64,000 nt of DNA from an uncultured Paracoccaceae bacterium (lineage in GTDB: Bacteria > Pseudomonadota > Alphaproteobacteria > Rhodobacterales > Rhodobacteraceae), in NCBI GenBank assembly GCA_947488175.1, contig CANKYO010000001.1:310001-374000 (forward strand), read 5' to 3'. Positions 985 through 62,265 of this stretch are shown piece by piece. Numbering within the stretch: the stretch's first letter is position 1; each line of letters begins with the position of its first letter. The translations under genes and the position numbers were made by a program. A model generated the notes under the pieces. It was not told the origin of the DNA and searched no databases. It saw nothing but the letters and a program-made list of their open reading frames with translations.

Positions 985-1102
985 CGCGCGCTGCGTTAAG
1001 CCACCCCCACCGTACAGTGGGGTCCGACGTTTTGCCGACGAAAATCCGACGCAACGCCGACAGCCGATTTTGCCTGCAAAACCAGCATTAACACATGATT
1101 CG
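985..1102 (+). repeat. Phased CCGACG element, copy 1 (four units)
   Basis: Four hexamers (CCGACG x3, then CCGACA) start at 1024, 1035, 1046 and 1057, exactly 11 bases apart with 5-base spacers. The 5' flank carries a GCGTTAA box and a CCCCAC/GTGGGG inverted repeat that ends in GTGGGGT just before the first unit. The 3' flank carries GCATTAAC followed by TGATTCG. Copies 2 and 3 are at 42410-42470 and 62170-62265. The element lies between lpdA and the GNAT gene, upstream of the GNAT gene. I do not recognise it. Confidence 0.75.
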
Positions 1103-1163
1103 GCACCCGAAACCGGGCGACCACCGCGCGGCACCGTAAGATGGGTTTTAACCCATCCCCGCC

Positions 1164-2558
1164 TCAGAAATGAATAGCGCGACCATAAGCATCAAGCACG
1201 CTCTCATGCATCATCTCCGACAGGGTCGGATGCGGGAACACGGCATGCATCAGGTCTTCCTCGGTCGTCTCCAACTGGCGGCCGACAACATAACCCTGGA
1301 TCAACTCAGTCACCTCGGCACCCACCATATGCGCGCCCAGAAGCTCACCAGTCTTGGCATCAAACACGGTCTTGATCATGCCCTCAGGCTCACCCAACGC
1401 GATGGCTTTGCCATTGCCGATAAAGGGAAAACGACCCACCTTCACGTCAAAGCCCAACTCCTTGGCCTTCGCCTCGGTATAGCCAACCGACGCGACCTGC
1501 GGATGACAATAGGTACAGCCCGCAATGCTTTCTGGCTTGACCGGATGGGCATGTTTGCCAGCGATCAACTCGGCCACCATCACACCCTCATGCGATGCCT
1601 TGTGGGCCAGCCACGGGGCACCGGCGATATCACCAATGGCATAAACACCATCGACACCCGTGCGGCAGTATTCATCAGTGACGACATGGGTCCGGTCCAC
1701 CTTAACGCCCAATTCCTCCAGGCCCAGCCCCTCAACATTACCAACGATCCCTACGGCACTGATAACAGTGTCGAATTCCATCTTCTCGACCTTGCCGCCA
1801 GCCTCGATATGGGCGGTCACCTTACCCTTGGCGCGATCCAGCTGCTTGACCATAGATTTCTCCATGATCTTCATGCCCTGCTTGACAAAAGCCTTCTTGG
1901 CAAAGGCCGAAATCTCGGCATCTTCGACAGGCAAAACACGGTCCATGACCTCGACCACAGTCGTCTCGCAGCCCAGCGTGTTGTAGAAACTGGCAAACTC
2001 AATCCCGATCGCGCCCGACCCAATGACGAGAAGTTTCTTGGGCATCCGCGGGGGCACCAGCGCGTGCTTGTAAGTCCAGACCAGATCACCATCGGCTTCA
2101 AGCCCCGGCAATTCGCGGGCGCGGGCGCCGGTGGCCAGAATGATGTTCTTGGCGGTCAGCTCCTCAACACCCTTCTCACCCTTAACAGACACTTTACCTT
2201 TGGCCGGTATCGTTGCGTCGCCCATGACGACGGTCACCTTGTTCTTCTTCAATAGATGGCCAACACCACCCGCCAACTGGCCCGCCACCTTGCGCGAACG
2301 TTTGACCACCGCGTCCAGATCGTAATCAATACCATCCGCCTTCAGGCCAAATTCCTTGGCGCGATGCATCAGGTGGAAAACTTCGGATGACCGCAACATC
2401 GCCTTGGTCGGGATACAGCCCCAGTTCAGGCAGATACCGCCAAGATGCTCGCGCTCCACAACGGCGACATTCATGCCCAGCTGTGCGGCGCGGATCGCTG
2501 CGACATAGCCGCCCGGACCGGCACCAATCACGATCAAGTCAAAGTTCTTCGCAGCCAT
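1164..2558 (-). CDS. lpdA: Dihydrolipoyl dehydrogenase (E3)
   Basis: FAD-dependent E3 subunit that reoxidises dihydrolipoamide with NAD+ in 2-oxoacid dehydrogenase complexes or the glycine cleavage system. At 464 residues it has the normal family length. Visible are the FAD-binding GAGPGG near residue 12, the redox-active disulfide GGICLNWGCIPTK (Cys43/Cys48), an NAD-binding GSGAIG segment, and the C-terminal HPHPTLSE motif that supplies the catalytic His-Glu pair of the partner subunit. I chose the MAAKNF start because GGAGG precedes it by about 8 bases; a longer frame exists to 2579. It has no dehydrogenase-complex neighbours here, so which complex it serves cannot be said. Confidence 0.96.
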   Translation of the reverse strand: MAAKNFDLIVIGAGPGGYVAAIRAAQLGMNVAVVEREHLGGICLNWGCIPTKAMLRSSEVFHLMHRAKEFGLKADGIDYDLDAVVKRSRKVAGQLAGGVGHLLKKNKVTVVMGDATIPAKGKVSVKGEKGVEELTAKNIILATGARARELPGLEADGDLVWTYKHALVPPRMPKKLLVIGSGAIGIEFASFYNTLGCETTVVEVMDRVLPVEDAEISAFAKKAFVKQGMKIMEKSMVKQLDRAKGKVTAHIEAGGKVEKMEFDTVISAVGIVGNVEGLGLEELGVKVDRTHVVTDEYCRTGVDGVYAIGDIAGAPWLAHKASHEGVMVAELIAGKHAHPVKPESIAGCTYCHPQVASVGYTEAKAKELGFDVKVGRFPFIGNGKAIALGEPEGMIKTVFDAKTGELLGAHMVGAEVTELIQGYVVGRQLETTEEDLMHAVFPHPTLSEMMHESVLDAYGRAIHF

Positions 2559-2660
2559 GCAAACGCCCTCCAAATGCAATTTGGTTGAACGTTAAACTAC
2601 TTTCCGCCGAACCTCTAGTGACCTTGCGTCATAGCCGCTAATCAATCCGTGCAAAGCGGA

Positions 2661-3242
2661 TCAACCAGCGTCCTGCTGGACCGCCCGGATCGCCGCACCA
2701 TAACCGCCCGCATCCAGAAAGGCCTGTTCAGCCGGGGTCGTCTTGCGGCCCAACGCATTGTTACGATAGGGAAAACGACCAAAATCGCGGATCACCTGCC
2801 GGTGCGCCTGGGCATGCTGTTCATTGCCCGATCCATGTTCCGGCATCCGGGTATGGATCAGCCTGACCGCACGGTCCTGATCACACAGGTTCTCCGAATG
2901 CATCAGCGGTAGATAGAAAAATTGCCGGGCCGGTTCATCGATCTTCATATCCCAATTGCGGTCGATCGCCATCTTGGCCGCGGCCAGGGCACATTGGTCG
3001 GTCGAAAACGCCTTGTCGTCATCACGGAACATATTGCGCGGAAACTGGTCGGTCAGAATGATATAGGCCAGCGTGCCCGACGGATAGGTCAGCCAAAGCC
3101 CCAGCGCACCCTCATAGGATTGCTTCCAGGTCTCTTCAAATCTCTCGCGGATCATCGCATCGAAATCAGGATCCGACCGATACCAGTCTGAGGGGTTACA
3201 TTCATCCAGCCAAAAAGCCAGAATTTCGTCTGCGGTTGCCAC
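2661..3242 (-). CDS. DUF924 family protein
   Basis: A 193-residue protein that matches DUF924: an N-terminal ILAFWLDE(C) segment, the LTDQFPRNMFR motif near residue 65, YLPLMHSE, and a C-terminal FGRFPYRNNALGR block. DUF924 is an all-helical, TPR-like fold with no established biochemical role. The start codon is GTG, supported by AAGGAG seven bases upstream. It stands alone, on the same strand as lpdA (gap of about 100 bases) and the MFS gene, so co-transcription is possible but not shown. Family assignment is confident; function is unknown. Confidence 0.88.
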   Translation of the reverse strand: MATADEILAFWLDECNPSDWYRSDPDFDAMIRERFEETWKQSYEGALGLWLTYPSGTLAYIILTDQFPRNMFRDDDKAFSTDQCALAAAKMAIDRNWDMKIDEPARQFFYLPLMHSENLCDQDRAVRLIHTRMPEHGSGNEQHAQAHRQVIRDFGRFPYRNNALGRKTTPAEQAFLDAGGYGAAIRAVQQDAG

Positions 3243-3345
3243 GGCACCACTCCTTAATCGCGTCCCCCTAACGTCAGGGAAGCAGAGAAATCAAAGCCTT
3301 GCAAGGTAGCAGTTTCCACCATTGATCACGTGATCTTTCGATATG

Positions 3346-4620
3346 TCACAGTGGTTGAGCATTTCCCTCCGGCCCGACCTCCTCTTCCGCCTCGATATAG
3401 ACCTCCTGTGCCACCTCAGCCACGACAGGGGTCGATGCCGCAGAAACAGCCGCATAGGGCACGGCCTCGGTATCCATAGTCTTGCGGCTCCGCTGCGTTG
3501 ACCGGTAAAGCCCGTAAAACCCAACGGTCAGCATCAGGATCGCGGTGAACAGCCAGAACCCGTTGGCGCCCAGCCCGTCCATCATCCACCCGACAATCAG
3601 GGGCCCCATAATCGCTCCTAACCCGTTGATAAACAACAACCCGCCAGAGGCTGCGGCCATATCCTCGCGTTCCAGATAATCATTGGTATAGGCGATCAGC
3701 AGGGCATAAAGCGGGTTCGATGTGCCACCCACAATCGCCCCGCTGATCAGGATCAATGCGTAGTTTCCGGGGATCAGAAAAGCGATCAACGATCCGGCCC
3801 CGCCCAACAGCGAAATCCAGATGATCAGCACCCGGCGGTCCATCCGGTCTGACAGCCAACCAATCGGATATTGCAGGACCAGTGCCGCGATATAGATCGC
3901 TGAAACGAACAGCGAAATCTCGCCAACGGTCAAGCCGACCCGATTACCATAGACCGCCGACATGCCGAATTGCGCGGCAAACACGCCGCCCAGCATGAAC
4001 ATCCCGAAACAGGCGAGCGGTGAGGCGTTGATTACCTGCCGGATCGTCATCGGCTTGGTCGAGGCAAAGGCAGGCATCGGACGCACCGATAACAGGATCG
4101 GGGCAAAGGCCAGCGACACCAGCACCGACGGGATGATGAACAACGCATAGCCCGACACATCGCCCTGACTGACAATCCACTGCGCAAACACGATCCCGGC
4201 CATCTGCACAATCATGTAAAGCGACAGCGCCTTGCCCCGGGTCTCGTTTGACGACGCATCGTTCAGCCAACTTTCGGCGGTGATATAAACACCGCAAAAG
4301 CAAAACCCGATGATGACGCGGCCAATGGTCCAGGCCCAGGGCTCAACCAGCACCGGATAAAGGATCAGCACAGCCGATATCATCGACCCCAGTGCCGCAA
4401 AGACGCGCACATGACCGACCCTGCGGATCAGCTCTGGCGTATAGCGGGAACTGAACAGAAACCCCAAAAAATAGGCCGACATGACAACCGACAGGCTGAA
4501 AGTACTGAACCCTTCGATATCACCCCGCAGGCCCAACAACGTGCCCTGCAGGCCGTTGCCAATCATCAGCATGAACATCCCCAGAAAAAGGGCCCATGAA
4601 CCGGCGAAAACCTGAAACAT
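3346..4620 (-). CDS. MFS transporter
   Basis: A 424-residue major facilitator with about 12 hydrophobic segments and the loop 8-9 signature GWLSDRMDRR at mid-protein. The N-terminus FAGSWALFLGMFMLMIGNGLQGTLLG and the following RGDIEG stretch resemble a family common in Rhodobacterales whose substrate is unknown. The C-terminus is an extended acidic cytoplasmic tail (about 45 residues rich in A, E and V). I chose the ATG at 4620 with AAAGGG upstream rather than the TTG five codons earlier. The neighbour queA starts elsewhere and gives no substrate hint. Confidence 0.85.
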   Translation of the reverse strand: MFQVFAGSWALFLGMFMLMIGNGLQGTLLGLRGDIEGFSTFSLSVVMSAYFLGFLFSSRYTPELIRRVGHVRVFAALGSMISAVLILYPVLVEPWAWTIGRVIIGFCFCGVYITAESWLNDASSNETRGKALSLYMIVQMAGIVFAQWIVSQGDVSGYALFIIPSVLVSLAFAPILLSVRPMPAFASTKPMTIRQVINASPLACFGMFMLGGVFAAQFGMSAVYGNRVGLTVGEISLFVSAIYIAALVLQYPIGWLSDRMDRRVLIIWISLLGGAGSLIAFLIPGNYALILISGAIVGGTSNPLYALLIAYTNDYLEREDMAAASGGLLFINGLGAIMGPLIVGWMMDGLGANGFWLFTAILMLTVGFYGLYRSTQRSRKTMDTEAVPYAAVSAASTPVVAEVAQEVYIEAEEEVGPEGNAQPL

Positions 4621-4725
4621 TTCATGCCCTTTCAATAACTGGCAGAACCGGGCTATCTCACGATTCCCTTACCAATTCATCACATGAAAACGACGCGGTC
4701 GCGCCTGTTCGCGCCTTTGAAGGTT

Positions 4726-30870: not shown

Positions 30871-30947
30871 TGGCGCGGTTGACGGGGCTCGAACCCGCGA
30901 CCCCCGGCGTGACAGGCCGGTACTCTAACCAACTGAGCTACAACCGC
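30871..30947 (-). tRNA. tRNA-Asp (GTC), copy 1
   Basis: 77 bases including an encoded CCA. On the minus strand it begins GCGGTTGTAGCTCAG and folds into a full cloverleaf with the acceptor stem GCGGTTG/CAACCGC, discriminator G, and anticodon GTC in CCTGTCACG. It is identical to the second copy at 31762-31838. Confidence 0.96.
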
Positions 30948-31291
30948 GCGTGAGGGGCGGCATAATCCGGCTTTGCGGGGCCGTCAACGGAAAATCACGC
31001 AGGCAGAGAAACTTTTGTGGGCATCGGGGAACAGGCAGAGGGCAATGCACCCACAGCCCCGCCAAACTGGTCCCGGCGCAAAGGACACATTGCGATCATC
31101 ATGACAAGAAAAGCGGTGGCTTGCTTGTCGTCAGTGAGCCAACCAAACCGTGAACGGCCTGCACGTTGCCTATGACCCGCAGCATTGGAGAAAGGTATAG
31201 CCAACAATCAGTGCAGTTCCAGTAGGCTCAAATTGACATCTGAAGGATTCCTCTAGACCGTCAGAATGACAATGATCGGCCAGAGAAGAGC
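30948..31291. other. Noncoding stretch between tRNA-Asp copy 1 and orphan membrane gene
   Basis: 344 bases without a supported gene. A 70-codon minus-strand frame at 30995-31207 (with WLTDDKQATAFLVMMIAMCP) is open but has no clear ribosome site or known family. GC falls toward the right end. No transposase or clear repeat was seen. Confidence 0.4.
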
Positions 31292-31633
31292 ATGTTTATT
31301 GCTGATCGAAGCTCTTTGATTGTGGAGGGAATAGTGCTTTCTGACGAAGACATTGAATGTGAAGAAAAAGAATTTACCAGAATAATTGCAAGCCTGGAGC
31401 GCCAAAAAATTTGGACACCATTGTTCTTCCTGGGATTTACTGCACTCCTTGTCTGGCTACAAACGGGAAAGATCATCGGACAAACTGACTCAACACTAGA
31501 AGCATACGGTGTCGCAGTGCTGTTTTTTCTGTACGTAGTTTTCGCAGAACTAACGAATGTTAAGATCATGCTTATCAAAGCCCAAAGAAGGGACTGGCGG
31601 CGGGATATACTCAGGCAGAAAGGAAAAAACTAG
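31292..31633 (+). CDS. Orphan small membrane protein (113 aa)
   Basis: A 113-residue protein with two predicted membrane helices (about 41-58, TPLFFLGFTALLVWL; and 71-88, YGVAVLFFLYVVFAEL), a charged N-terminus, and a basic C-terminus (KAQRRDWRRDILRQKGKN). The ATG is preceded by GAAGAG. The gene is markedly AT-richer than its neighbours and lies alone between two identical tRNA-Asp genes, which suggests recent acquisition. No family is recognised, so a function cannot be given. Confidence 0.6.
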   Translation: MFIADRSSLIVEGIVLSDEDIECEEKEFTRIIASLERQKIWTPLFFLGFTALLVWLQTGKIIGQTDSTLEAYGVAVLFFLYVVFAELTNVKIMLIKAQRRDWRRDILRQKGKN

Positions 31634-31761
31634 ATGGCCAAATGCTGCCCTGCGAACCCATAATCAGAGAACCTCACCAACAACAAACGTATGGAAGTCA
31701 TGGAACTGACATAGCGCCACAAATGTCGTCAGGCAGTAAAACGTTGATTTATTGGTAAAAA

Positions 31762-31838
31762 TGGCGCGGTTGACGGGGCTCGAACCCGCGACCCCCGGCG
31801 TGACAGGCCGGTACTCTAACCAACTGAGCTACAACCGC
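31762..31838 (-). tRNA. tRNA-Asp (GTC), copy 2
   Basis: 77 bases with encoded CCA, identical in sequence to the tRNA-Asp at 30871-30947 and in the same orientation 815 bases away. Anticodon GTC. The flanking sequences differ beyond a few bases on each side. Confidence 0.96.
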
Positions 31839-32161
31839 GCATCTGTTTGCCCGGCCGCCAGGCCGGAACACCCTGCTTCTAGGTGGCGGACCGGATCAGG
31901 TCAAGCGCTCAAAACAGCAAAAAGCTGACGTCGGGGCAACCTGCAGCATTGCCACAATTCAACACCATTATGTCGCAAAAAATGCGGCAAGGGCGCACAA
32001 ATTAACCACGTTACCCAGTCAAACTGCCCCTGCCGCAGACCATCACAGTCTTTTTGTTACCTATTGATTATCACCACGCGGAACGCAGACAGAAACCAAT
32101 AAATAATGCAGGCCCATCTTTGACACGACCCCGCGCGATTGCTGAAGCCTTTTGTCACGAA
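31839..32161. other. Noncoding stretch upstream of LytTR gene
   Basis: About 320 bases of mostly AT-richer sequence that should contain the promoters of tRNA-Asp copy 2 (minus strand) and of the LytTR gene (plus strand). No ORF with a ribosome site, no repeat and no terminator was recognised. Its right end may be coding if the LytTR gene starts further upstream than chosen. Confidence 0.35.
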
Positions 32162-32959
32162 GTGACCATATATGACGTGTTTTTCGGCAAATTCACCCTC
32201 AGTCTTTCACGCTTCGTGAAAATGATCACGGATCCAAGGGGCCTTGTTTTTCTGGCGCTGGGATGTGTGCTCCTGTTTGCCGCCGATCCCAATAATGTGC
32301 GCGTCAATCTGGGGCCGATACTCGCCCTGCTGATCTGGATCGGCTCTGTCGCGCTTTATGTGAGCACGATTTTTGCGATGATCGCGCTGTTTTCGTTCAC
32401 ACAGCACCATTTCGGCCCCTACCCGATCTACACGCCGGTCACATCGACCATCGGCCTGCTGCTGGTCTTTGTCTGTGCAAGGGCCGCCATTTCTTTCATC
32501 ACCGGTGATCCACCGCCCGATAACGCGGCGCCCTTGTTTTTCAACCTTTTGATCGCGGGCATGATGCTTGAGACATTGTTCATTCGCTTTGCCATGCCGG
32601 GCATCTTTGCGGATGAAAACAAGCCGCGCCACAGCCCCGATGTAATCCGGATCGGTGACCAGCAGTTTCCTGTTCAAAGGATCAGGCACATGGCCGCGCA
32701 AGAGCACTATATCAACATCGCCGGACCGACAGGTACGGTGCTGGTCCGGGCGCGGCTCAGGGATGCGGTGGCGCAAACAACGCCCGAACAGGGCCTGCAG
32801 CCGCACCGGTCATGGTGGGTGTCAACAGCAGCCAAACCCAAGTTGGGCCACCAAAACGGCAAGCCCATCCTACAATTGGACGATGACACGATTGTACCCA
32901 TCGCCAAAGCGCGGATGGATGATGTACAACGCTGGATCAATTTACACGGCGACTGGTAA
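32162..32959 (+). CDS. LytTR-domain transcriptional regulator with membrane N-terminus
   Basis: About 265 residues: four predicted membrane helices in the N-terminal 150 residues, then a C-terminal LytTR DNA-binding domain (FPVQRIRHMAAQEHYINI, VLVRARLRDAV, HRSWWVST, IVPIAKARMDDVQRWI). LytTR proteins bind direct repeats upstream of target promoters; membrane-anchored versions without a receiver domain are frequent in Rhodobacterales and are unstudied. The start is uncertain: the frame is open from 32054 (TTG), there are GTG codons at 32162 and 32177, and the first ATG is 32222. None has a strong ribosome site. The stop touches the stop of the convergent pirin gene. Confidence 0.8.
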   Translation: MTIYDVFFGKFTLSLSRFVKMITDPRGLVFLALGCVLLFAADPNNVRVNLGPILALLIWIGSVALYVSTIFAMIALFSFTQHHFGPYPIYTPVTSTIGLLLVFVCARAAISFITGDPPPDNAAPLFFNLLIAGMMLETLFIRFAMPGIFADENKPRHSPDVIRIGDQQFPVQRIRHMAAQEHYINIAGPTGTVLVRARLRDAVAQTTPEQGLQPHRSWWVSTAAKPKLGHQNGKPILQLDDDTIVPIAKARMDDVQRWINLHGDW

Positions 32960-33898
32960 CTACCTCTCAGGCAACGGAATAAATTCAGCATCATCATTGG
33001 GCGGCAACTGAAACCGGCCATTCTGCCAGTCGCCCGCGCGCCAGGCCTCCTTGGCCTCCTCGATCCGCTGCTTGCTTGAGGCGACGAAGTTCCACCAGAT
33101 ATACCGCTCACCCTCCAGCGTCGCCCCACCCAGCAGCATTACACGCGCCCCTTGCGGTCCGGCCTTCATGCTGACGCGGTCGCCGGGGCGAAACACCATC
33201 ATGCGGCCCGCGTCGTAATCCTCGCCGGCAATGGTCACGCTACCTTCCAACACATAAGCGCCGCGATCCTCGTGATTATCGGGCATGGGCAGGGCCGCCC
33301 CAGGCTCCAGAATCGCATCAAGATAAAACATCTCCGACGGGGTTTCGACGGGCGCACGACTGCCATAGGCATCGCCCATGATCAGGCGCACCTGCTTGCC
33401 TTCACCATCCATCAGCGGCAGATCGGCCTTGGGCGCATGGATAAACGCGGCCTCGCGATCCTCGGCCCCTTTGGGCAGGGCAATCCATGTCTGGATGCCG
33501 AACAGGCTTTGCGGCTTTTCGCGCGCCTCACCATCCATGCGTTCGGAATGAGTAATGCCGTGACCGGCAATCATCAGGTTCATCGCCCCCGGCTCGATCC
33601 ACTGCTCGGTGCCAAGGCTATCGCGATGATGGATCGCACCGCGATGCAGATAGGTCACCGTCGCCAGCCCAATATGCGGATGCGGGCGCACATCAATCCC
33701 CTGTCCGGTCACAAACTCCGCCGGTCCCATCTGGTCAAAGAAAATGAACGGGCCCACCATCTGGCGGCGCGGGGCCGGCAAGGCACGGCGCACCTCGAAC
33801 CCGCCCAGATCGCGGGCGCGGGGAACGATTACGGTCTCAATGGCATCCACGGCATCGTCGGTCGGGCAATGCGGGTCGAGGGCTGGATTCCAACTCAT
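32960..33898 (-). CDS. Pirin family protein
   Basis: A 312-residue bicupin of the pirin family. Metal ligands of the N-terminal cupin are visible in DVRPHPHIGLATVTY, the HRD segment IHHRDSLG, and GHGITHSER. The C-terminal cupin carries PDNHEDRGAYVLEG. Some pirins are quercetin 2,3-dioxygenases, others act as redox sensors; the substrate here is open. The MSWNPALDPHCP start is fixed by a strong AAGGAG eight bases upstream. The gene is convergent with the LytTR gene with no gap. Confidence 0.92.
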   Translation of the reverse strand: MSWNPALDPHCPTDDAVDAIETVIVPRARDLGGFEVRRALPAPRRQMVGPFIFFDQMGPAEFVTGQGIDVRPHPHIGLATVTYLHRGAIHHRDSLGTEQWIEPGAMNLMIAGHGITHSERMDGEAREKPQSLFGIQTWIALPKGAEDREAAFIHAPKADLPLMDGEGKQVRLIMGDAYGSRAPVETPSEMFYLDAILEPGAALPMPDNHEDRGAYVLEGSVTIAGEDYDAGRMMVFRPGDRVSMKAGPQGARVMLLGGATLEGERYIWWNFVASSKQRIEEAKEAWRAGDWQNGRFQLPPNDDAEFIPLPER

Positions 33899-33994
33899 CA
33901 GGACTCTCCTTTCAGGGTTACTGAAAAGATAGGGCAGCAGCACAGCAATGAAAGCCAAAGCCGCGCACATCACATCTGCATGAAAAGAGAGGAA

Positions 33995-34070
33995 TGGTGG
34001 GTGATGAGAGGCTCGAACTCCCGACATCTTCCGTGTAAAGGAAGCGCTCTACCAACTGAGCTAATCACCC
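33995..34070 (-). tRNA. tRNA-Val (TAC)
   Basis: 76 bases with encoded CCA; acceptor stem GGGTGAT/ATCACCC with discriminator A, D-stem GCTC, anticodon stem CTTCC/GGAAG and loop TTTACAC, giving anticodon TAC, then TTCGAGC in the T-loop. It shares its acceptor stem with the CAC isoacceptor 656 bases away. Confidence 0.95.
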
Positions 34071-34112
34071 GATCCCGCGTCGTTTAGACCAGCGGCGCAT
34101 GCAGTGCAAGCC

Positions 34113-34673
34113 TCATTCCAACAGGGTCTGCACGCCATCTTTCAAATGGTAAACACAGCCCTGCCCGCCACTCAACGCGGACACGGTCAAGGCAGCATCG
34201 TGGGTGACCAGCGACCGGATCATGCGGCTGGTGATCCCATGGGTGACCAGCACGGCAGGCCCGTCCAGATCGGCCAGAAACGCGCGGCAGCGGGCCTCAA
34301 GCCGGGCAAACCCTTCGCCATTGGGGGCGATATCGTATTGCGCCAGAAACGGGTCCGGGGCCTCCGGCGTCGGCAAACCATCACGCAGCAGGCCGGACCA
34401 GTCACCAACGCCGATCTCGCGCAACCGGTCATCAGTGCGGACATGGCGCGCCACACGGGCTAGCGCGATGCCCGCCGTCTGCACGGCACGGCCCTGCGGA
34501 CTGGTCAGAAATATGAACCCCGTCAAATCGCGCCATTGCAGGATTTCGCCCTGCCGGGCGGCGTCCATCTCACCCTTGGGGGTCAGCGGCGAATTCAACT
34601 CGCCCTGCATCCGGTTCTCGGCATTCCACTCGGTCTCGCCATGGCGCAGCACGTAAAGCTCTGGATGTGACAT
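34113..34673 (-). CDS. Histidine phosphatase family protein
   Basis: A 186-residue branch-1 histidine phosphatase (phosphoglycerate mutase-like). The catalytic phosphohistidine motif LRHGETEWN is at residues 8-16, the arginine/serine motif SPQGRAVQTA follows, and the second catalytic His is in VLVTHGITSR. Likely a small-molecule phosphatase rather than a glycolytic mutase, since the alpha-insert of GpmA is missing. Start at the ATG of MSHPELYVLRHG. It lies between two tRNA-Val genes on the same strand and begins 18 bases past a hairpin that should end the upstream tRNA transcript. Confidence 0.9.
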   Translation of the reverse strand: MSHPELYVLRHGETEWNAENRMQGELNSPLTPKGEMDAARQGEILQWRDLTGFIFLTSPQGRAVQTAGIALARVARHVRTDDRLREIGVGDWSGLLRDGLPTPEAPDPFLAQYDIAPNGEGFARLEARCRAFLADLDGPAVLVTHGITSRMIRSLVTHDAALTVSALSGGQGCVYHLKDGVQTLLE

Positions 34674-34691
34674 CGGGGACCCCCGCCAAGG

Positions 34692-34716
34692 AAAAGCGCG
34701 CCACAATGGGCGCGCC
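34692..34716 (-). terminator. Terminator downstream of tRNA-Val (CAC)
   Basis: On the minus strand a 7-bp stem GCGCGCC / GGCGCGC with a 6-base loop is followed by TTTTC. It starts 9 bases after the tRNA 3' end and precedes the phosphatase start codon by 18 bases, so the phosphatase is probably transcribed from read-through or a promoter inside this short gap. Confidence 0.65.
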
Positions 34717-34725
34717 GGAAAATAA

Positions 34726-34800
34726 TGGTGGGTGATAAGAGATTTGAACTCCTGACATCTTCGATGTGAACGAAGCGCTCTACCACTGAGCTAATCACCC
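34726..34800 (-). tRNA. tRNA-Val (CAC)
   Basis: 75 bases with encoded CCA; acceptor GGGTGAT/ATCACCC, anticodon stem CTTCG/CGAAG with loop TTCACAT and anticodon CAC. One base shorter in the D-loop than the TAC isoacceptor at 33995-34070. Confidence 0.95.
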
Positions 34801-39045: not shown

Positions 39046-40136
39046 AAATCAGCCTCCCACTCCGCAAACCGGCCCCCTGCAATGGCCTCCCGCATCCCCT
39101 GCATGATTTCCTGAAAATAATGCAGGTTGTGCCAGGTCAGCAACATGCCCGAAATCATCTCCTGCGCCCGGAACACATGATGCAGATAGGCGCGGGAATA
39201 GCTGGCACAGGCCGGACAGGTACACGCCTCATCCAGCGGGCGCGGGTCATCGGCATGGCGCGCATTCTTGATATTGACCACACCACGCCGGGTAAACACC
39301 TGCCCCGTCCGGCCAGAGCGTGAGGGCAGCACGCAATCCATCATATCAATGCCGCGCTTGACCGCCCCCACGATATCATCGGGCTTGCCCACCCCCATCA
39401 GGTAACGTGGCTTGTCCACGGGCAACTGATCGGGCGCAAAATCCAGACAGCCGAACATTGCCTCTTGCCCTTCACCCACGGCCAGACCACCAATCGCATA
39501 GCCGTCAAACTCTATCGCACGCAGCGCCTCAGCGGATTGCGCACGCAAATCTTCTTCCAGCCCGCCCTGCTGAATGCCGAACAAGGCATGACCGGGGCGG
39601 TCGCCAAACGCATCCCGCGACCGCTGCGCCCAGCGCATCGACAACTCCATACTTTCGGCGATGCGCTTGCGATCGGCAGGCAGCGCCGGACATTCATCAA
39701 AACACATCACAATATCGGACCCCAGCAAACGCTGGATCTCCATCGACCGCTCCGGCGTCAGATGATGGCGCGACCCGTCAATATGGCTTTTGAAGGTCAC
39801 CCCCTCCTCGGTCAGCTTGCGCAGATCCGACAAGCTCATCACCTGAAACCCGCCACTATCTGTCAGGATCGGCTTGCCCCAATTCATGAACCTGTGCAGG
39901 CCACCCAACCGGTCAATCCGCTCCGCCGTGGGGCGCAACATCAGGTGATAGGTATTGCCCAGCAGAATATCGGCCCCCGTCGCCGCCACACTCTCCGGCA
40001 GCATCGCCTTGACCGTGGCAGCCGTCCCCACAGGCATAAAGGCAGGCGTGCGAATATCGCCACGCGGCGTCGAAATCACCCCGGTGCGGGCCATGCCATC
40101 GGTGGCGTTCAGAGAAAATGAGATTGCTTTTGTCAT
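39006..40136 (-). CDS. tgt: Queuine/preQ1 tRNA-ribosyltransferase (TGT)
   Basis: TGT swaps guanine 34 of GUN-anticodon tRNAs for preQ1. At 376 residues it is full length; key motifs are [12 protein letters not shown] (catalytic Asp), FDECPA, FGIQQGG, and the zinc site [16 protein letters not shown]. The tRNA-Asp genes in this window have a GTC anticodon and are therefore substrates. It is divergent from the MFS gene with a 27-base gap and overlaps the end of the convergent membrane-protein gene by 40 bases. queA, which acts later, is about 34 kb away. Confidence 0.97.
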
Positions 40137-40163
40137 GGCCCCTCTTCCCTGATCCGTGCAACT

Positions 40164-41417
40164 TTGCCAAGAGCATCCTGCCAGAACGTCGCATCAAACC
40201 GGAAAGCCAGGCCCATCCCCTACAACCGCCATTTCCTGACGGCCACAGGCATCGTCGCCACGCTTGTTCTGGCGCAAAGCATGCTGTCCTTCGCCCTACC
40301 CCTTCTGGCGCTGGAAATCAGCGGCACGGGTACGGGTCTGGCCCTGATCAAAGGGGCGGGGTTTATTCCCAACATCCTCTTCGCCGTCTTCGTCGGGGTC
40401 ATCAACGACCGGATGCGCAAGGCCACGGGATTCCGGCTCTACACCCTCCTGCTCGCCGCCTCCTGCGCGATCCTCTGGGCGATGATGCTGGCGGACCGGG
40501 TCAACATCGCCAGCCTCGTCATTTTCGTGATCTTCCTCAACGCGGTCGGCTACGCGCTGGGAAATCTGCAATTCACCCTGCTCCGGCTGACAGTGCCCGA
40601 GGACCGATTAAGCGACGCCACCGCCCTCAACAGCGCCATCAACGCCACCATCACAACCATCGGGCCTGCGGTCGGTGGGTTTACTTTGCTGACGCTGGGC
40701 AGCACCGGGCTTGTTGGGATTGTCACGCTGATCCTGCTGGCCAATGCGGTCGCGGCCTTCACCGTCAACCCCGACGAAACATTGCCGCCTCCCAGCCCGT
40801 TCTGGCCATCCTTGCGCGAAGGGTTCGCCGTCTTCGCCAAGAACCGGGAACTGGTGATGATGACCATCGCCGTCATCCTGACCAACGCCGCAGCAGGCGC
40901 ATTCATCGTCGGGCTTCTGCTCAAGCTCAAGACGCAACTGGGGGCCAATGATTTCGAAACCGGTCTGGTGGTTGCCGCTGCCGGCGTGGGGTCGGTCATC
41001 GCCGCCACCTACGCACCGCGCATCCGGCGCCATATCGGTTATCGGGCAGCCTTCTTCTGGCCGATCTGGCTTTTGGGTCTGCTCAGCCTCGCCACCGCCG
41101 CCGCACCCACGCTCCTGATCCTCTTCATCATCAGCTTTCTCGAAGGGGCGGTGTCGATCTTCTACGACATCGGCATCTGGTCCTACCGGCAGGAAAGCAC
41201 GGCCGCGGCGCATATGGGGCGGGTCGCCGGGATCACAGGGGCGATCTTCAAACTGGGGATGCCGCCGGTGATCTTCCTTGCCGGATGGCTCGCCGACGCG
41301 GATGCGCTGACTAGCGTCTTCCTTCTGTCCACCGGCCTTTTCATCGGCGCGGCCCTCTTCCTCAGCCTTGTGGCGGGCTGGGGCCTGCCGCGCAAGGCCA
41401 CCTTTACCAAAGCCTGA
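40164..41417 (+). CDS. MFS transporter
   Basis: A 417-residue major facilitator with roughly 10-12 membrane helices and the loop 2-3 motif [14 protein letters not shown]. It resembles the exporter-like MFS group (EntS-type) that carries drugs or siderophores, but the substrate is not determined. The start is a problem: no ATG exists before the first helix, and TTG at 40164 without a clear ribosome site is the most upstream in-frame start. It is divergent from tgt with only 27 bases between them. Confidence 0.82.
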
Positions 41418-41438
41418 ACGCACTCAGCGCGTCCTCGA

Positions 41439-42257
41439 CTAATCCCAGGGGATCACCACCGTCACCCCTTGCCCGCGCGTAAACATCGTCGCGCGGTTCA
41501 GCCAGACCACCACAACCGCAGCCAACGCAAAGAACCACGTGTCATAAGGCTGCGCATCCGGCCACAGCGGGTTGTTCAGTTGGAAATGAAACAGCAGTGG
41601 CAACAGGATACTGCCCCGCGCGGCGTTGAACATCGGCGTGATGATGAGGCTTAGCGACACGGCCCCGATAATGAACGGGGTAAAGCTCCAGGCGCTTTGC
41701 GGCGTGCCCGACAATAGGAAGGCAGGCAGATGCCACACACCCCAGACAATGCCCAACAGCACCCCGGCCCAGATCGGCGCCATCCGGCGCTGCAACAAAG
41801 GCAAGGCCAGACCGCGCCAGCCGATCTCCTCCATCGGGCCAAGGATCAGCATGAAGCCCATCGCCACCAGAAACGGGGCCGGTCCGTCAAACGGAAACGC
41901 CCAAGGCGCACCTTTCACCGCGGCCCCGGCGGCAAACAATAGCGGAATGCCCAGCAGCAAAAACGCATACCACCATACCGAACATCGCCATAGGAACAGA
42001 CGAGACAGGAACCGGCCCAGCCCGGCCAACCCGCCACGGATCACAACCAGCAGCATGGCCGCAATCGCCGGGGCATAAACCGCCAGAATAAACAGCGGAT
42101 GTGCCGCGCTCACCTCGCCAAAGATCCGCACCATGGCGTCTGTATAAACCAAAAGAAGACCAACAGCGCCCCATGCCAGACCAAAGGCGATCAGCAGGAA
42201 CGGCAACAGCGCCTCGAACGGCACTGCGGGCGCGGTGTCGGTTGAACGAACAGGCAT
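41439..42257 (-). CDS. CPBP family intramembrane glutamic endopeptidase
   Basis: A 272-residue integral membrane protein of the CPBP/CAAX protease family. The catalytic EExxxR appears as GPMEEIGWRGLALPLLQ, the second motif as VWGVWHLPAFLL, and the third as a histidine in LLFHFQLNN. In bacteria such proteases are linked to bacteriocin self-immunity or protein processing; the substrate is unknown. Start ATG at 42257 after AAGGA. One of the phased CCGACG elements lies 171 bases upstream, between this gene and the divergent DUF59 gene. Confidence 0.9.
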   Translation of the reverse strand: MPVRSTDTAPAVPFEALLPFLLIAFGLAWGAVGLLLVYTDAMVRIFGEVSAAHPLFILAVYAPAIAAMLLVVIRGGLAGLGRFLSRLFLWRCSVWWYAFLLLGIPLLFAAGAAVKGAPWAFPFDGPAPFLVAMGFMLILGPMEEIGWRGLALPLLQRRMAPIWAGVLLGIVWGVWHLPAFLLSGTPQSAWSFTPFIIGAVSLSLIITPMFNAARGSILLPLLFHFQLNNPLWPDAQPYDTWFFALAAVVVVWLNRATMFTRGQGVTVVIPWD

Positions 42258-42409
42258 TATCAGATCCTTCTCCCACCGTTGTTTCACCCTCCATGATATC
42301 AACGTGGCAAATTGGCTGGTTGAGACAAATCAACCAACACCCATAAAAGCCTGTGGGTTACATTCGGGCGGGCGATGACAAGCGCGGCAAGTCTTTAAAT
42401 ATCTGCCAA

Positions 42410-42470
42410 GCGACCGCACGATGGGGTCCGACGTTTTGCCGACGCATATCCGACGCGATGCCGACCGCCA
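42410..42470 (+). repeat. Phased CCGACG element, copy 2 (four units)
   Basis: Hexamers at 42428, 42439, 42450 (CCGACG) and 42461 (CCGACC), exactly 11 bases apart, preceded by CCGCACGATGGGGT as in the other copies. The 3' flank is only loosely like copies 1 and 3 (TTTAC and ATTCC at similar distances). It lies in the divergent gap between the CPBP gene and the DUF59 gene. Confidence 0.75.
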
Positions 42471-55273: not shown

Positions 55274-55332
55274 GACCCTCAACTTACCCAGCCTCTCTTG
55301 CATTGGCCAGATGGCTGCGCCAAACCTGCCAA

Positions 55333-56502: not shown

Positions 56503-56578
56503 CTGGTTCAATTGCGCCTGCGGTCGCACCTGCTATAGAGGTTCAACCGCAAGGAACGCGCAGATAGGCAGACCATCA

Positions 56579-58378: not shown

Positions 58379-58508
58379 ACGCCGCTCCCTCCCCCCAAAG
58401 ACTGGACATCAGGCGACACTCGCCCAAAAAATGTGCCCGGTACAGCACAGCGTATTGCCAGACAGGCGTCGAAGTGCTTTGGGGTCCCCGCGAACAGGGA
58501 GAATTATC

Positions 58509-58772
58509 ATGAGTATCCGCGCCAGCCTTGCCCCATTGGCCTTACTTGCGCTAGCCGCATGCGACATCCAGACCACCCCGCCCCTGCCCGAAGGCGTGGC
58601 GGCCATGGCCGCCCCCTATCAGGACCTGCAAACCGCCGTCCTGCTGCCCGAAGATAACTGCTACTGGTACAGCCACGCAGGACCGGTCGAAACCACCCTG
58701 CTGCCGCTTAGAACAACCCAAGGGCGGCCGATCTGCCTGCAAGCCGCCGAAACCGCCCCCGCGACCCAGTAA
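58509..58772 (+). CDS. Small lipoprotein (87 aa)
   Basis: An 87-residue lipoprotein precursor: signal peptide MSIRASLAPLALLALAAC with lipobox LAAC, then a short mature domain with DNCYWYSHAGPVETTLLP and one further Cys pair (NCYWY, RPICLQ) that may form a disulfide. GGGAG lies 9 bases before the ATG. Many Rhodobacterales have such small lipoproteins next to L,D-transpeptidase or wall genes, but no function is known. The stop is 6 bases from the stop of the convergent L,D-transpeptidase gene. Confidence 0.8.
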   Translation: MSIRASLAPLALLALAACDIQTTPPLPEGVAAMAAPYQDLQTAVLLPEDNCYWYSHAGPVETTLLPLRTTQGRPICLQAAETAPATQ

Positions 58773-58778
58773 CCCGGG

Positions 58779-59501
58779 TCAGCTGCGGGCGGTAATCGCA
58801 TCCTCGGCAGGATACAGGATTGCCGACGATCCGGTCTCAACCTGATCATAAAGCCCGATGATATGGGCCATCACCATGCGCACGCAGCCGGAACTTGCGC
58901 GGCCACCGATGGACCGGGGCGACGGGGTGCCATGGATACGCAGATACGTGTCACGGCGACCCACGTAAAGATACAGCGCGCGTGACCCCAGCGGATTGCT
59001 CGGGCCGCCATCCATCCCATCCTTGAACCGCTCGAAAGAGCCCGGATCGCGCTCGATCATCGCATCGGTCGGGCGCCATGTGGGCCAGCGGGCCTTGCGG
59101 CGGATCGTATAGGTGCCCGGCTCGTACAGTTTGCCGGTGGCAATCGCCACGCCATAGCGCATCGCGGTGCCATCAGCGCGGATGTGATAAAGATACCGGG
59201 CTATCGCATCGACATGGATATCACCGGGGCGCAGGTTCGGGTTCGCCTCGACTATCGTAGGCAGAAACCGAGGGTGAAACCCCCATGGATTCGAAGTAAA
59301 CGGGTCATAATTGCGCGGGGTCACGCGCCTGTCCCATCCGGGCCAACGTGACGGGGGCGATACCGGCGGGCGCGGCGGCACAACCTCTTCGACCGTGGAC
59401 AGCACGGCGTCGGTCTCGACCTCCTGCGCCAGCGCGGCACCTGCGATGGGTGGCGAAAACAACGCCGCCGTTGTCATGATGAAATGACGTCTGCTTAACA
59501 T
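58779..59501 (-). CDS. L,D-transpeptidase (YkuD domain)
   Basis: A 240-residue secreted L,D-transpeptidase with a signal peptide (MLSRRHFIMTTAALFSPPIAGAALA; an RR pair and SRRHFIM make Tat export likely). The YkuD motif HGTPSPRSIGGRASSGCVRM holds the catalytic His, Ser/Gly and Cys, so the enzyme appears active and should form 3-3 cross-links or attach lipoproteins to peptidoglycan. Family length is normal. The 248-base gap to the divergent Tat gene holds an inverted repeat. Confidence 0.93.
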   Translation of the reverse strand: MLSRRHFIMTTAALFSPPIAGAALAQEVETDAVLSTVEEVVPPRPPVSPPSRWPGWDRRVTPRNYDPFTSNPWGFHPRFLPTIVEANPNLRPGDIHVDAIARYLYHIRADGTAMRYGVAIATGKLYEPGTYTIRRKARWPTWRPTDAMIERDPGSFERFKDGMDGGPSNPLGSRALYLYVGRRDTYLRIHGTPSPRSIGGRASSGCVRMVMAHIIGLYDQVETGSSAILYPAEDAITARS

Positions 59502-59594
59502 GGTCCGGCCTCTCCGCCCTCAATCAACAGCAAAAACAAGAAATTTCGGGTTAGGCGAAAAACAGCCTTACGGCAAGGGGAGTGACGGTTCAGG

Positions 59595-59661
59595 CGGCTC
59601 ACATCCCTGTGCGGTGCGGCCATAACGCACCAAAACGGGCAACTCACGCATCTGTGAGCCG
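59595..59661. promoter_or_regulatory. Inverted repeat in the divergent promoter region
   Basis: Arms CGGCTCACA (59595-59603) and TGTGAGCCG (59653-59661) are perfect inverted repeats 49 bases apart in the gap between the L,D-transpeptidase and the Tat-exported protein. They could be a looping operator or part of a long hairpin in the leader of the plus-strand gene. Confidence 0.45.
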
Positions 59662-59749
59662 TCTTTACCGCTCAATTACCATCGCCAATTCGGATTTCGG
59701 CGCAGATGCGCTACAATTTCAAAAACAACGGCCAAAGGGAGACCGCGAC

Positions 59750-60238
59750 ATGACCGAAAAGCGCACCAGCCGGCGCACGCTTCTTGCCACTGCCGGGGCC
59801 GTCTTGGCCACCGGGCTGTCGGGTCTCGTCGTTCCTGCGCAGGCCCAAGGGCTGACCCCCACCACATCCATGCGCGGTGGATCCAACAATTACCGGCCCG
59901 GCGCACCAATCGTTGACCGGATCGGCGGCGGTGGGTTCTGGATGACCGGCACGGTGCGGCGGGCAGGTGATGGTCAACCACTCGAAGGGCAGCGGATCCA
60001 GATCTGGGCGCACACGACCGAAGGGCATGAACGCGACCCGCAAAGCCACGGGGCAACACTGACCGACGCCAACGGCATGTTCCGGCTTGAAATGCCACAG
60101 ATCGTCCCGGCCTTCGGGCAACCCCACGGGCACCTCGCCTATGACAGTGGGGATTTTGAAACAGTCTTTTTGCGCCCCGTCATGGCAAGTGCCAGCGATA
60201 CGACACTTCACGCGGATTTCGTGCTGCAACCGGCCTGA
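59750..60238 (+). CDS. Tat-exported intradiol-dioxygenase-like protein
   Basis: A 162-residue protein with a twin-arginine signal (TSRRTLLATAGAVLATG, cleaved after PAQA). The mature part resembles a short intradiol ring-cleavage dioxygenase domain (MTGTVRRAGDGQPLEGQRIQIWAHTTEGHERDP, then GMFRLEMPQ), but the Tyr-Tyr-His-His iron ligand set is incomplete as far as I can see, so catalysis is doubtful. AAAGGGAG precedes the ATG. A cytochrome b-type membrane protein gene follows after 6 bases; the pair suggests a redox job at the membrane. Confidence 0.72.
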   Translation: MTEKRTSRRTLLATAGAVLATGLSGLVVPAQAQGLTPTTSMRGGSNNYRPGAPIVDRIGGGGFWMTGTVRRAGDGQPLEGQRIQIWAHTTEGHERDPQSHGATLTDANGMFRLEMPQIVPAFGQPHGHLAYDSGDFETVFLRPVMASASDTTLHADFVLQPA

Positions 60239-60244
60239 TCCAGG

Positions 60245-60856
60245 ATGGGGACGAACCGGGCGACACGCGCACGGGGCGCTCTGATCTGGGGCGCTCTGAC
60301 CGCAGCCACGGCCATACCCATCGCAGCCGCCGCCACCAGCCCCCTGCTGGCATGGCGCGAGCCGGTCTATATTCTGGCAGGCTTTGCCGGGATCATCGCC
60401 ATGGCTCTGATGTTGCTACAGCCGCTTTTGGCGGGCGGGCGTCTGCCAGGTCTGCGGGCCATGCGCGGGCGACAGGTGCATCGCTGGATCGGTGGCATTC
60501 TGGTGACCGCGGTAATCATCCATGTGGCCGCCCTTTGGGTTACCAGCCCGCCTGACGTGATCGACGCGCTGCTTCTGGCCTCCCCCACCCCGTTTTCAAT
60601 CTGGGGTGTGGTCGCCATGTGGGCGATCTTTGCGACCGCCATTCTCGCGGCGCTCCGGCGGCGGCTGGCCCCACGGACATGGCGGCGGGCGCACACCGCC
60701 CTGGCACTGGTGATCGTAAGTGGCACCGTGATCCACGCCTTGCTGATCGAAGGAACCATGGAAACCATCACAAAGGCCCTCCTTTGCGCCTTTGTGATGG
60801 TTGCGACCATCAAGGTTGTGATCGACCTGAAAACATGGGCACGCCGCCCGCGTTAA
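60245..60856 (+). CDS. Ferric-reductase-like/cytochrome b membrane protein
   Basis: A 203-residue membrane protein with about five helices. Two histidine pairs in the patterns RQVHRWIGGILVTAVIIHVAALW and RRAHTALALVIVSGTVIHALLI would ligate two hemes, as in ferric-reductase-like (NOX/MsrQ-type) domains. It probably moves electrons across the membrane to the Tat-exported neighbour encoded 6 bases upstream. The last four bases overlap the stop codon of the convergent DUF2145 gene (shared TTAA). Confidence 0.85.
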   Translation: MGTNRATRARGALIWGALTAATAIPIAAAATSPLLAWREPVYILAGFAGIIAMALMLLQPLLAGGRLPGLRAMRGRQVHRWIGGILVTAVIIHVAALWVTSPPDVIDALLLASPTPFSIWGVVAMWAIFATAILAALRRRLAPRTWRRAHTALALVIVSGTVIHALLIEGTMETITKALLCAFVMVATIKVVIDLKTWARRPR

Positions 60857-61659
60857 CCCGCGAACCCGACCACACGATCCGGTGTGACGCGATACACTTG
60901 CGACGCCAGATCATTGGCGCGCATGAACCGGGCAATCGACCCAAACGTCGCCGTTTTCACCTGCGGTCCATGATCCGCCGTGGTCAGCGCCTGCGACGCG
61001 GCAGGGGCGAACAGGCGTTGCAACCCGTTCAGGCGCACATTTTGCGGTTCAAAATAAGCCGCGATATTGGCCTTGATCCGGCGGGGATCGCGCGTGTCGT
61101 AAATCGCGGCCATCAACACATCCAGCGTATGCTCGGTACAATTCTGGAATTGCGATGATCCGGGGTTGGCCAGCACCGAATAGGTCGGGTTATGCAGGGC
61201 CGCATATGTGGGGCTGGCGATCACCTCCAGCAGTTTGCGCTGCAATCGGGGGTCAGGAATGATCACCCCCGCATCCAGCACCTGCGCGCCCGCAAAGAAA
61301 TCAGCGGGACTGTCCTGGACCAACTCGCTACGGGTCAGATTTCCCTGCTTCTGATAAAGATTATAGACACGATACCCCATGCCGGTACTGCCATCAGCCC
61401 GCGTAATCCGGGAATAGACCCAGAAACCCACATGGGTATAGCGAATGCCATCGGGCAGCATGGACGGATCACGACCCACCCGGGCCACAATCGCCACACT
61501 GGCCCCGCGTGCGGCCAGATCCTGCTGCACGCGGTTCGCGAATGTGGCCACTTCGGCCACGGGCAATACCGAATTGCCCGCCGCACTGCTGCCTGCACCT
61601 GCCTGGAAAGGCAGACATGCGACCAGCATCAGCATGATCAGCGATATCAAACGTTTCAT
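60853..61659 (-). CDS. DUF2145 domain-containing protein
   Basis: A 268-residue exported protein (signal peptide MKRLISLIMLMLVACLPFQA) of DUF2145, with the conserved YTHVGFWVYSR, GYRVYNLYQ and FQNCTEHTLDVLMAA motifs; the Cys and His in the last could form a catalytic pair as in papain-like or NlpC folds, but no activity is shown. AGGAG precedes the ATG at 61659. A small lipoprotein gene lies 14 bases upstream on the same strand, forming a two-gene operon. Confidence 0.9.
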   Translation of the reverse strand: MKRLISLIMLMLVACLPFQAGAGSSAAGNSVLPVAEVATFANRVQQDLAARGASVAIVARVGRDPSMLPDGIRYTHVGFWVYSRITRADGSTGMGYRVYNLYQKQGNLTRSELVQDSPADFFAGAQVLDAGVIIPDPRLQRKLLEVIASPTYAALHNPTYSVLANPGSSQFQNCTEHTLDVLMAAIYDTRDPRRIKANIAAYFEPQNVRLNGLQRLFAPAASQALTTADHGPQVKTATFGSIARFMRANDLASQVYRVTPDRVVGFAG

Positions 61660-61673
61660 GATCTCACTCCTGA

Positions 61674-62027
61674 TCAGTTCAGCCGCGGCGGACCATCGGG
61701 GGTCACACAGTCCGGCTGTCGCGGCGTTGGCCCGCATGTGGCAGGCGGACGCGCGCCAATACCGGCCTCAAAAACCTCAACCCCGGCATTCAACGACCCG
61801 GTGCCCACCTCTTCAATCGCGGCACCTGTGACCGCCAGAACCGACCCTGCCGCCATCACCGGCACCGCGCTGACCGTCGCCGCGCCAGAGGCGACAGCAC
61901 TGACCCCGTGGCCCGTGGCCTGCGCACTGTGATCGGCGGATTGGGTGGCGTGTTGAACACTCGGGCTGGCACAGGCACCAACAAGGAAAAGGGCCGCAAA
62001 CCCGGCTGTACGCTTGACAAATTGCAT
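61674..62027 (-). CDS. Small alanine-rich lipoprotein
   Basis: A 117-residue lipoprotein precursor (MQFVKRTAGFAALFLVGAC, lipobox VGAC) with a glycine/alanine/valine-rich mature region (VSAVASGAATVSAVPVMAAG) that could insert into or lie along a membrane, and a C-terminal CGPTPRQPDC tail with two cysteines. GGAGAG precedes the ATG. It is the first gene before DUF2145. Copy 3 of the phased CCGACG element lies 173 bases upstream of the start. Confidence 0.82.
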   Translation of the reverse strand: MQFVKRTAGFAALFLVGACASPSVQHATQSADHSAQATGHGVSAVASGAATVSAVPVMAAGSVLAVTGAAIEEVGTGSLNAGVEVFEAGIGARPPATCGPTPRQPDCVTPDGPPRLN

Positions 62028-62169
62028 GATGTCTCTCCATTCATGAACAATGCTCACGTTCGTAGAGCGCCACTTCACATCGGTCAACTAATTTGTGAAC
62101 TGCGTTCACAAATAGTAGGGAAAACCCGACCAAAGTATGAAGATTATCTTCACCTTTTAACCGCACGCC

Positions 62170-62265
62170 GCATTAATCGGCCCAACCGTGCGGTGGGGTC
62201 CGACGAAATGCCGACGCATCGCCGACAGGCGAAATCGCCTTGCCGCCTTGCGTTAACTGATGATT
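62170..62265 (+). repeat. Phased CCGACG element, copy 3 (three units)
   Basis: CCGACG at 62200 and 62211 and CCGACA at 62222, exactly 11 bases apart. As in copy 1 the unit array is preceded by a GCATTAA box and a CCGTGCGGTGGGGT stretch, and followed exactly 40 bases later by GCGTTAAC and TGATTCG. The element lies between the lipoprotein gene (start) and the lrp-type gene (end). Confidence 0.75.

Follow-up and report, generated by a model that had tools for sequence, protein, structure and literature searches.

Dispersed arrays of a CCGAC word at an 11-bp period in a Rhodobacteraceae genome, with other words in related species

Arrays in the window

We analyzed a 64,000-nucleotide stretch of the genome of an uncultured Paracoccaceae bacterium (positions 310,001 to 374,000, forward strand, of contig CANKYO010000001.1, assembly GCA_947488175.1; hereafter the window), in which an initial annotation had pointed to three intergenic arrays of a CCGACG hexamer recurring every 11 bp. 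These belong to a set of at least 91 distinct arrays in this genome, which are kept alike largely apart from what surrounds them, share positions with arrays of relatives, and have counterparts built on other words at the same period in other species. They may be binding sites of a putative protein with a chromosome-wide role.

Re-reading confirmed all three arrays, their exact 11-bp spacing, and the GTGGGGT or ATGGGGT directly ahead of each. The words start at 1024, 1035, 1046, and 1057; at 42428, 42439, 42450, and 42461; and at 62200, 62211, and 62222, the final word being a one-base variant in all three cases (CCGACA, CCGACC, and CCGACA). With up to three mismatches, TGGGGTCCGACGNNNNGCCGACG occurs three times in the window versus 0.01 expected from shuffles, and three consecutive CCGAC words are matched exactly five times (overlapping, all on the + strand) and never in 200 mononucleotide shuffles. 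Pairs of hexamers alone are undistinctive, with 13 at spacing 11 versus 14 at spacing 12 on the + strand (one mismatch per hexamer). The features are as follows, class A being the class of arrays with the consensus frame described in the next section.

960..975, + strand: left box TTAA-N7-TTTA of element 1, with CtrA-like spacing (read from the sequence; N7 spacing class-wide)
982..999, + strand: class A box CACCGCGCGCTGCGTTAA of element 1 (sequence and class A consensus)
1008..1022, + strand: motif CACCGTACAGTGGGG of element 1, immediately 5' of the array (sequence and class A consensus)
1024..1062, + strand: array 1, CCGACG, CCGACG, CCGACG, CCGACA, period 11 bp (pattern match)
1088..1102, + strand: right box TTAACACATGATTCG of element 1 (sequence and right-box search)
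42410..42426, + strand: motif GCGACCGCACGATGGGG of element 2, ahead of the array (sequence and class A consensus)
42428..42466, + strand: array 2, three CCGACG then CCGACC, period 11 bp (sequence)
62157..62177, + strand: left part of the class A frame in element 3, TTAACCGCACGCCGCATTAAT (sequence and class A consensus)
62200..62227, + strand: array 3, CCGACG, CCGACG, CCGACA, period 11 bp (pattern match)
62253..62267, + strand: right box TTAACTGATGATTCG of element 3 (sequence and right-box search)
62301..62313, + strand: right end CACCGAACGTTGC of element 3 (sequence)

Array 2 is assigned to class A by the flank rule given below, but its flanks fit poorly. The right end of element 3 lies 5 bases from the 3' end of an AsnC-type gene (62319-62837, minus strand). 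Scanning the window against Rfam gave only four tRNA matches at gathering score, none of them at the arrays; four tRNA genes are found inside 4 kb (30874-34800, minus strand).

Genome-wide set and anatomy

The suggestion that the element recurs throughout the genome was borne out. In the source genome (G000, 4.74 Mb), TCCGACGNNNNKCCGACGNNNNKCCGAC with at most two mismatches was found 105 times on the forward and 87 times on the reverse strand, overlaps counted (192 matches), and the reversed pattern used as a control gave 0 + 0; a shorter, looser pattern gave 72 + 63 matches versus 8 + 8. From 108 loci we drew at least 91 distinct arrays, of which 78 have four words, 12 have three, and one has five. 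Most thus carry four words at a period of exactly 11 bp, one word per helical turn.

We divided the 91 arrays by their right flank into 55 of class A and 36 of class B, with a rule crude enough that some frame-bearing copies (e.g., L050, L067, L107) were sorted into class B. The class A frame spans about 205 bp. Its left half consists, in order, of AAACCTTAAC..TTnAC, ACCG..CGC..TTAA, and GGGGT, followed by the array; the right half consists of an ATTT stretch, TTAAC..ATGATTCG, and finally CACCGAACGTTGC. The TTAA boxes on either side have a preferred N7 spacing, which likewise amounts to 11 bp: it was observed on the left in 25 of the 55 copies (at most 4 at any other gap of 4-10) and on the right in 39 (at most 6). 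A TTAA-N7 pair occurs in 2/36 class B copies, though a TTAA is within reach in 27/36. Class B copies are shorter and frequently occupy a small intergenic gap, some of them stopping about 16-21 bp ahead of a likely start codon (L003, L011, L019, L030, L094).

In class A, the end of the element often coincides with the position of the stop codon of a convergent right gene. The right gene converges on the array at 31 loci, with its stop 84-106 bp away in 21 and 95-98 bp away in 11. In L077, L092, and L108, a variant right end, CACCGTACGGTGGGGG..ACGCAACACC, resembles the reverse complement of the usual GGTGTTGCG..CCCCACCGAACGTTGC, as if this segment had been inverted.

The element does not appear to fold. 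Using RNA energies, mean z values were -0.36, -0.27, -0.02, and -0.29 (classes A and B, two strands), none above shuffles; z fell below -2 in at most 4/55 copies, and the mean z of the array alone was +0.43. An RNA fold was thus rejected on RNA energies only. Judged by eye, the consensus of the 55 class A copies contains no terminal inverted repeats, and the right part of some copies reads like a terminator hairpin.

Gene context and strand polarity

The initial annotation had seen in a high copy number the mark of a regulon, which found no support. The neighboring genes are unrelated, as that annotation had itself observed: we scanned 37 proteins encoded at the arrays or close to them, including 10/22 and 10/25 of two neighbor lists, and those with names share no function (heme A synthase, GatB, HisH, HisD, CMP kinase, dihydrolipoyl dehydrogenase, glutamate synthase small subunit, fatty acid desaturase, Sir2, cobalamin adenosyltransferase, and a sigma-54-type response regulator). 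Moreover, 20 of the 55 class A copies are flanked by a convergent gene pair, and the orientation of the arrays is not tied to the direction of genes.

Orientation tracks the GC skew better. Once the array itself is excluded, the neighborhood is C-rich on the strand that reads CCGAC at 71/91 loci of the source genome (p = 7e-8) and at 62/91 loci of other isolates. Among the loci of the source genome without tandem flanking genes, the figure is 38/44, two of which lack a called left gene. The skew has the sense of the right gene in 55/91 cases and of the left gene in 46/89, closer to even. The same polarity was obtained in the two genomes with CAGCC arrays described below (14/15 and 12/14); arrays of the third word, TGTAC, were left out of these counts because this word is nearly its own complement. 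From this polarity we infer a link between array orientation and the direction of replication.

That the arrays never lie in coding sequence holds for the window and fails for the genome. With a simple gene caller, 20/91 arrays fell within some open frame, mostly short and doubtful. There is one certain coding copy, an array in frame within the valine--tRNA ligase gene (valS), where the stretch with the array is 10 residues longer than in the valS of G017, without a clean junction, and where the array is missing from 8/8 aligned relatives. In addition, the array of L098 and the CMP kinase gene, as called, overlap at the gene's 3' end, and the array seems to provide the stop codon.

An array directly precedes the dihydrolipoyl dehydrogenase gene in three species, which represent two genera; the word is CCGAC in our genome (L090), TGTAC in G005 (L356), and CCGAC-like in G230 (L289).

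Conservation in relatives

We carried out the comparison with relatives that the initial annotation had proposed, the closest records among the matches listed being the uncultured Rhodobacteraceae isolates 356, 2-1073, 2-1022, 2-530A-G, and 2-582A. Positions are shared: judged by at least one flank, 60/91 arrays of other isolates are at the spot of an array of the source genome, 57 of them within 40 bp, with support from the right flank only in 38 cases, from both in 16, and from the left only in 6. For G023, the count was 17/30. An element confined to three copies and lacking conservation, which would have argued against the initial reading, is thus not what was found.

Presence is less regular. 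At the orthologous spot of element 2, G014, G023, and G026 have a CCGAC array (the stretch of G026 that was compared spans this element only), and at the spots of elements 1 and 3, no array of at least three CCGAC words was found in G014 and G023. Among pairs matched by either flank, which are not independent and represent 34 loci of the source genome, the left flank was conserved in 20/53 and the right flank in 51/55, so the same element often has different DNA on its left side. This is the case, for example, to the left of L068 and L066 and at 40126-42411 of the window, where the DNA differs among species; the region between the conserved blocks left of element 2 is about 2.3 kb long in the window versus about 0.1 kb in G014. 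An insertion hotspot or integron-like site was rejected, as no common far junction appeared and several synteny breaks of the window lie away from the elements. At the one emptier site that could be aligned, the sequences were too diverged for a target duplication to be recognised.

One array may have been acquired by transfer. At L021/L322 (contigs G000:C4 and G017:C12), a 2.1-kb stretch has 95% identity between G000 and G017, versus 80% at valS. Since G017 has 65 TGTAC matches versus 6 CCGAC matches, its CCGAC array at L322 is suspected to be foreign.

Spacers follow the genome

Spacers between words gave a second view of the arrays. Because the pattern used to fetch the other isolates fixes part of the first spacer, we dropped that spacer from the recount, leaving 8 bases; the pattern used for G023 leaves all 12 spacer bases free. 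The numbers of spacer pairs, 29 and 14, are small, and the pairs are not independent. In the isolates, orthologous arrays differed from ours at 4.97 of 8 bases and non-orthologous ones at 4.97 (n = 29), versus 3.34 for paralogues within our own genome. The uncorrected count, of 12, agrees (6.59, 6.64, and 5.30, respectively). In G023, orthologous arrays differed at 5.93 and non-orthologous arrays at 6.30 of 12 bases (n = 14, P = 0.32), and paralogues within G023 at 3.67/12. Spacer sequence therefore follows the genome rather than the locus.

Flanks follow the locus better. From +40 to +100 bp, identity in class A was 0.67 for orthologues versus 0.61 and 0.59 (19 pairs), and in class B 0.86 versus 0.54 and 0.54 (8 pairs); inside the class A frame, the advantage of orthologues was slight. 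Taken together, the arrays are kept alike within a genome, largely independently of their surroundings.

Other words in other species

The initial observation was correct and an understatement. The use of other words in the same frame by related species is invisible from one window. We surveyed 394 Rhodobacteraceae genomes of 393 genera with the CCGAC pattern at one mismatch, which was matched by 18, including G000 and G014; the numbers of matches were 113 in G201, 90 in G386, 72 in G123, and 28 in G239. The reversed control lit up two other genomes instead, G270 and G435, of two other genera, in which arrays of CAGCC with the 11-bp period gave 57 and 34 matches, respectively (control 0). In G435, these arrays are often flanked on either side by GTTAAC.

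A third word came from the genus of the source bacterium. At one locus, G007 and G021, with 0 or 1 CCGAC match, have a TGTAC array at 11 bp (read by eye in G021). A search for TGTAC across the genus gave matches in 28/56 genomes, at least 11 in 18 of them and 1-3 in the other 10, with a maximum of 79 in one genome and 4 for the reversed control over all 56. Some of these arrays were counted on both strands because TGTAC is nearly its own complement. Species rich in CCGAC have 0 or 1 TGTAC match.

Different words occupy the same frame. The right box alone (TTAACNNATGATTCG) was found in 12/56 members of the genus (one control match). All 18 copies in G469 hold CCGAC arrays. Outside the CCGAC-rich species, two of three copies in G008 and one of two in G005 have such arrays, the remaining copy of each having none; the three of G017 and the one of G030 have CCGAC or near words, and the one of G029 lacks an array. 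The single copy of G470 is TGTAC-like, and the four of G033 mix words such as CATAC, TGTAC, CCGAC, and CAGAC. G468, which was found through TGTAC, also carries the class A frame. Counted back from TTAAC, the register of the words is constant within one base in the 16 copies shown, and other or mixed words stand in register in the same frame in six copies (G468 one, G470 one, G033 four).

Some loci are shared across words. The same gene and the same side as an array of the source genome were found for 6/29 TGTAC loci (five of its arrays), one of the 29 coming from G000 itself, and for 1/29 CAGCC loci; if each locus is assumed to have a 2.5% chance, the probability of at least six shared TGTAC loci is 7e-5. 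The TGTAC loci involve dihydrolipoyl dehydrogenase (L090), a HAD-type hydrolase (L094), an OYE-like oxidoreductase (L053), a cyclic-nucleotide phosphodiesterase (L069), and the locus with glutamate synthase small subunit (L065); the CAGCC locus involves YqeY (L102).

Scanning 29 loci of relatives without a preset word, for at least three hexamers at a fixed period, gave period 11 twice (G007 and G013), 9 twice, and 12 once, which is weak evidence on its own. The G013 case (L347, from 965) is a run of GTGCAC-like hexamers that may lie in coding sequence. Two viral contigs (L351, L352) lack the frame but have exact CCGACG repeats at 11 bp, and a search of a plasmid collection with one element gave no match.

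Discussion

Fixed phase, a mostly fixed number of words, a conserved frame, and the lack of an RNA fold are best accounted for by a tandem, helix-phased site for a putative cooperative DNA-binding protein with a genome-wide role, whose word switches between lineages, a reading to which we give even chances. The element would then be a non-coding site in double-stranded DNA, usually of four tandem half-sites that face the same side of the helix, one in each turn, framed in class A by two TTAA-N7-TT boxes. The putative protein, aligning along the array, would probably be built like a regulator of the OmpR/PhoB family, because members of that family, too, recognize direct repeats with 11-bp spacing. 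It would act mainly on the scale of the genome, for example in chromosome organisation or a step linked to replication, rather than in the control of single genes, because the copies adjoin unrelated genes, often at 3' ends, form no regulon, and track the GC skew. The word (CCGAC, TGTAC, or CAGCC) would switch between lineages together with the protein, copies within a genome being kept alike. More tentatively, the four-site elements, patchily distributed though widespread in Rhodobacteraceae, could be read by a fast-evolving DNA-binding protein whose chromosome-wide role is linked to replication; a change of its specificity would rewrite the word of about a hundred sites in an unchanged frame, and the words of neighboring species would be dialects.

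Several observations weigh against such a protein site. The CtrA-like pair is almost missing from class B, polarity in G023 taken by itself is not significant (20/30, p = 0.10), the frame copies of G033 bear degenerate words, and presence varies among relatives, as at elements 1 and 3. Many members of the genus have neither CCGAC nor TGTAC in number, so the element is dispensable there or its words went unseen. The spacers of G435 are GC-rich, contrary to those of other arrays; for the same reason, DNA bent by AT-rich spacers was rejected as a general rule. The array in valS is an acquisition that no regulator would require. Finally, a reader of half-sites need not read the spacers, and spacers specific to each genome fit better with copying of the whole array.

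The last two points lead to the main rival, a small mobile or gene-converted repeat without host function, in which an array of about 40-65 bp would copy itself, or be copied by an enzyme acting elsewhere, to new spots or over older arrays. The initial annotation had listed a small mobile repeat among its options, and we retain it as a serious, though not the likelier, explanation. The in-frame gain in valS and the homogenised spacers, with orthologous arrays as different as non-orthologous ones and paralogues closer, suggest that arrays can be copied, and both the patchy distribution of CCGAC (18/394 genomes) and the differences in presence among relatives are in line with it. However, positions are common to several species, for some loci across words, neither terminal inverted repeats (by eye, in the class A consensus) nor a fold were seen, no target duplication could be recognised at the single emptier and strongly diverged site aligned, and the mixed words within single arrays of G033 resemble drift rather than replacement. 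A functional site and uniformity by copying may also hold at once.

That the arrays are promoter operators of the classical kind, serving a single global transcription regulator, is unlikely. Some class B copies end about 16-21 bp before a likely start codon, CtrA-like boxes lie within the class A frame, and OmpR/PhoB sites typically have direct repeats with an 11-bp period; but the convergent position of 20/55 class A copies, the unrelated functions of the scanned neighbors, and an array orientation independent of gene direction are hard to reconcile with a regulon. An element acting in RNA, as a terminator, Rho site, or untranslated-region structure, is very improbable: class A right ends often fall at a stop codon (11/31 convergent right genes, at 95-98 bp) and some resemble terminator hairpins, but nothing folds above shuffles, Rfam matched nothing in the window besides the four tRNAs, and orientation to transcription is inconsistent. 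A Rho rut site in particular, suggested by C-rich words every 11 nt, was discarded, since the orientation of the copies does not follow that of the upstream gene.

If the tandem protein site is real, about a hundred chromosomal sites and a reader protein would make up a system so far unrecognised in these bacteria, and three words in one family, two of them in one genus, would constitute a natural experiment in the joint change of a protein and its target. The word would be a direct handle for finding the putative protein, by pulldown or covariation. Even as a mobile repeat, the array would be of an unfamiliar type among bacteria, being non-palindromic and kept uniform per genome separately from its frame.

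Comparison with known systems

Like the initial annotation, which knew of no named element with this structure, we found no description of such arrays in Rhodobacteraceae in the literature searched, subscription papers being mostly outside its coverage. Rickettsia palindromic elements include repeats in frame within protein genes, a likeness to the valS copy, but our arrays are non-palindromic and one coding copy is clearly documented. Miniature inverted-repeat transposable elements have terminal inverted repeats, which visual inspection of the class A consensus did not reveal. The CtrA box is TTAA-N7-TTAA, and both class A flanking boxes have the N7 spacing with a looser second half; these boxes flank the array, however, and the array word itself is no CtrA word. 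REP sequences, REPINs, and GTAG- and CGTC-tagged palindromic repeats are dispersed, high-copy, mostly intergenic, and alike within a genome, as are the arrays. REPs are palindromic stem-loops (PMC3733652), whereas the arrays do not fold.

The closest likenesses are among regulators reading direct repeats. One of them is from Rhodobacter sphaeroides, which we take to belong to the same family as the source bacterium. The CenR site is given as TGA-N8-TGA, a formula that places the half-sites 11 bp apart although the paper states 10 bp; it has two units and another word, and lies upstream of envelope genes (PMC9275681). Members of the OmpR/PhoB family (ArcA, PhoB, OmpR) bind direct repeats whose centres are spaced by 11 bp, often in runs of 3-5, and for ArcA, 92/158 sites have 3-5 direct repeats mostly 11 bp apart (PMC3798270). 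The arrays share these direct repeats and not the promoters of a coherent regulon, given the 20/55 convergent class A copies and the unrelated neighbors among the 37 proteins. ArcA words are described as degenerate and are tied to a regulon (PMC3798270), whereas the words of the arrays are near-exact, adjoin unrelated genes and 3' ends, and vary among species of one genus.

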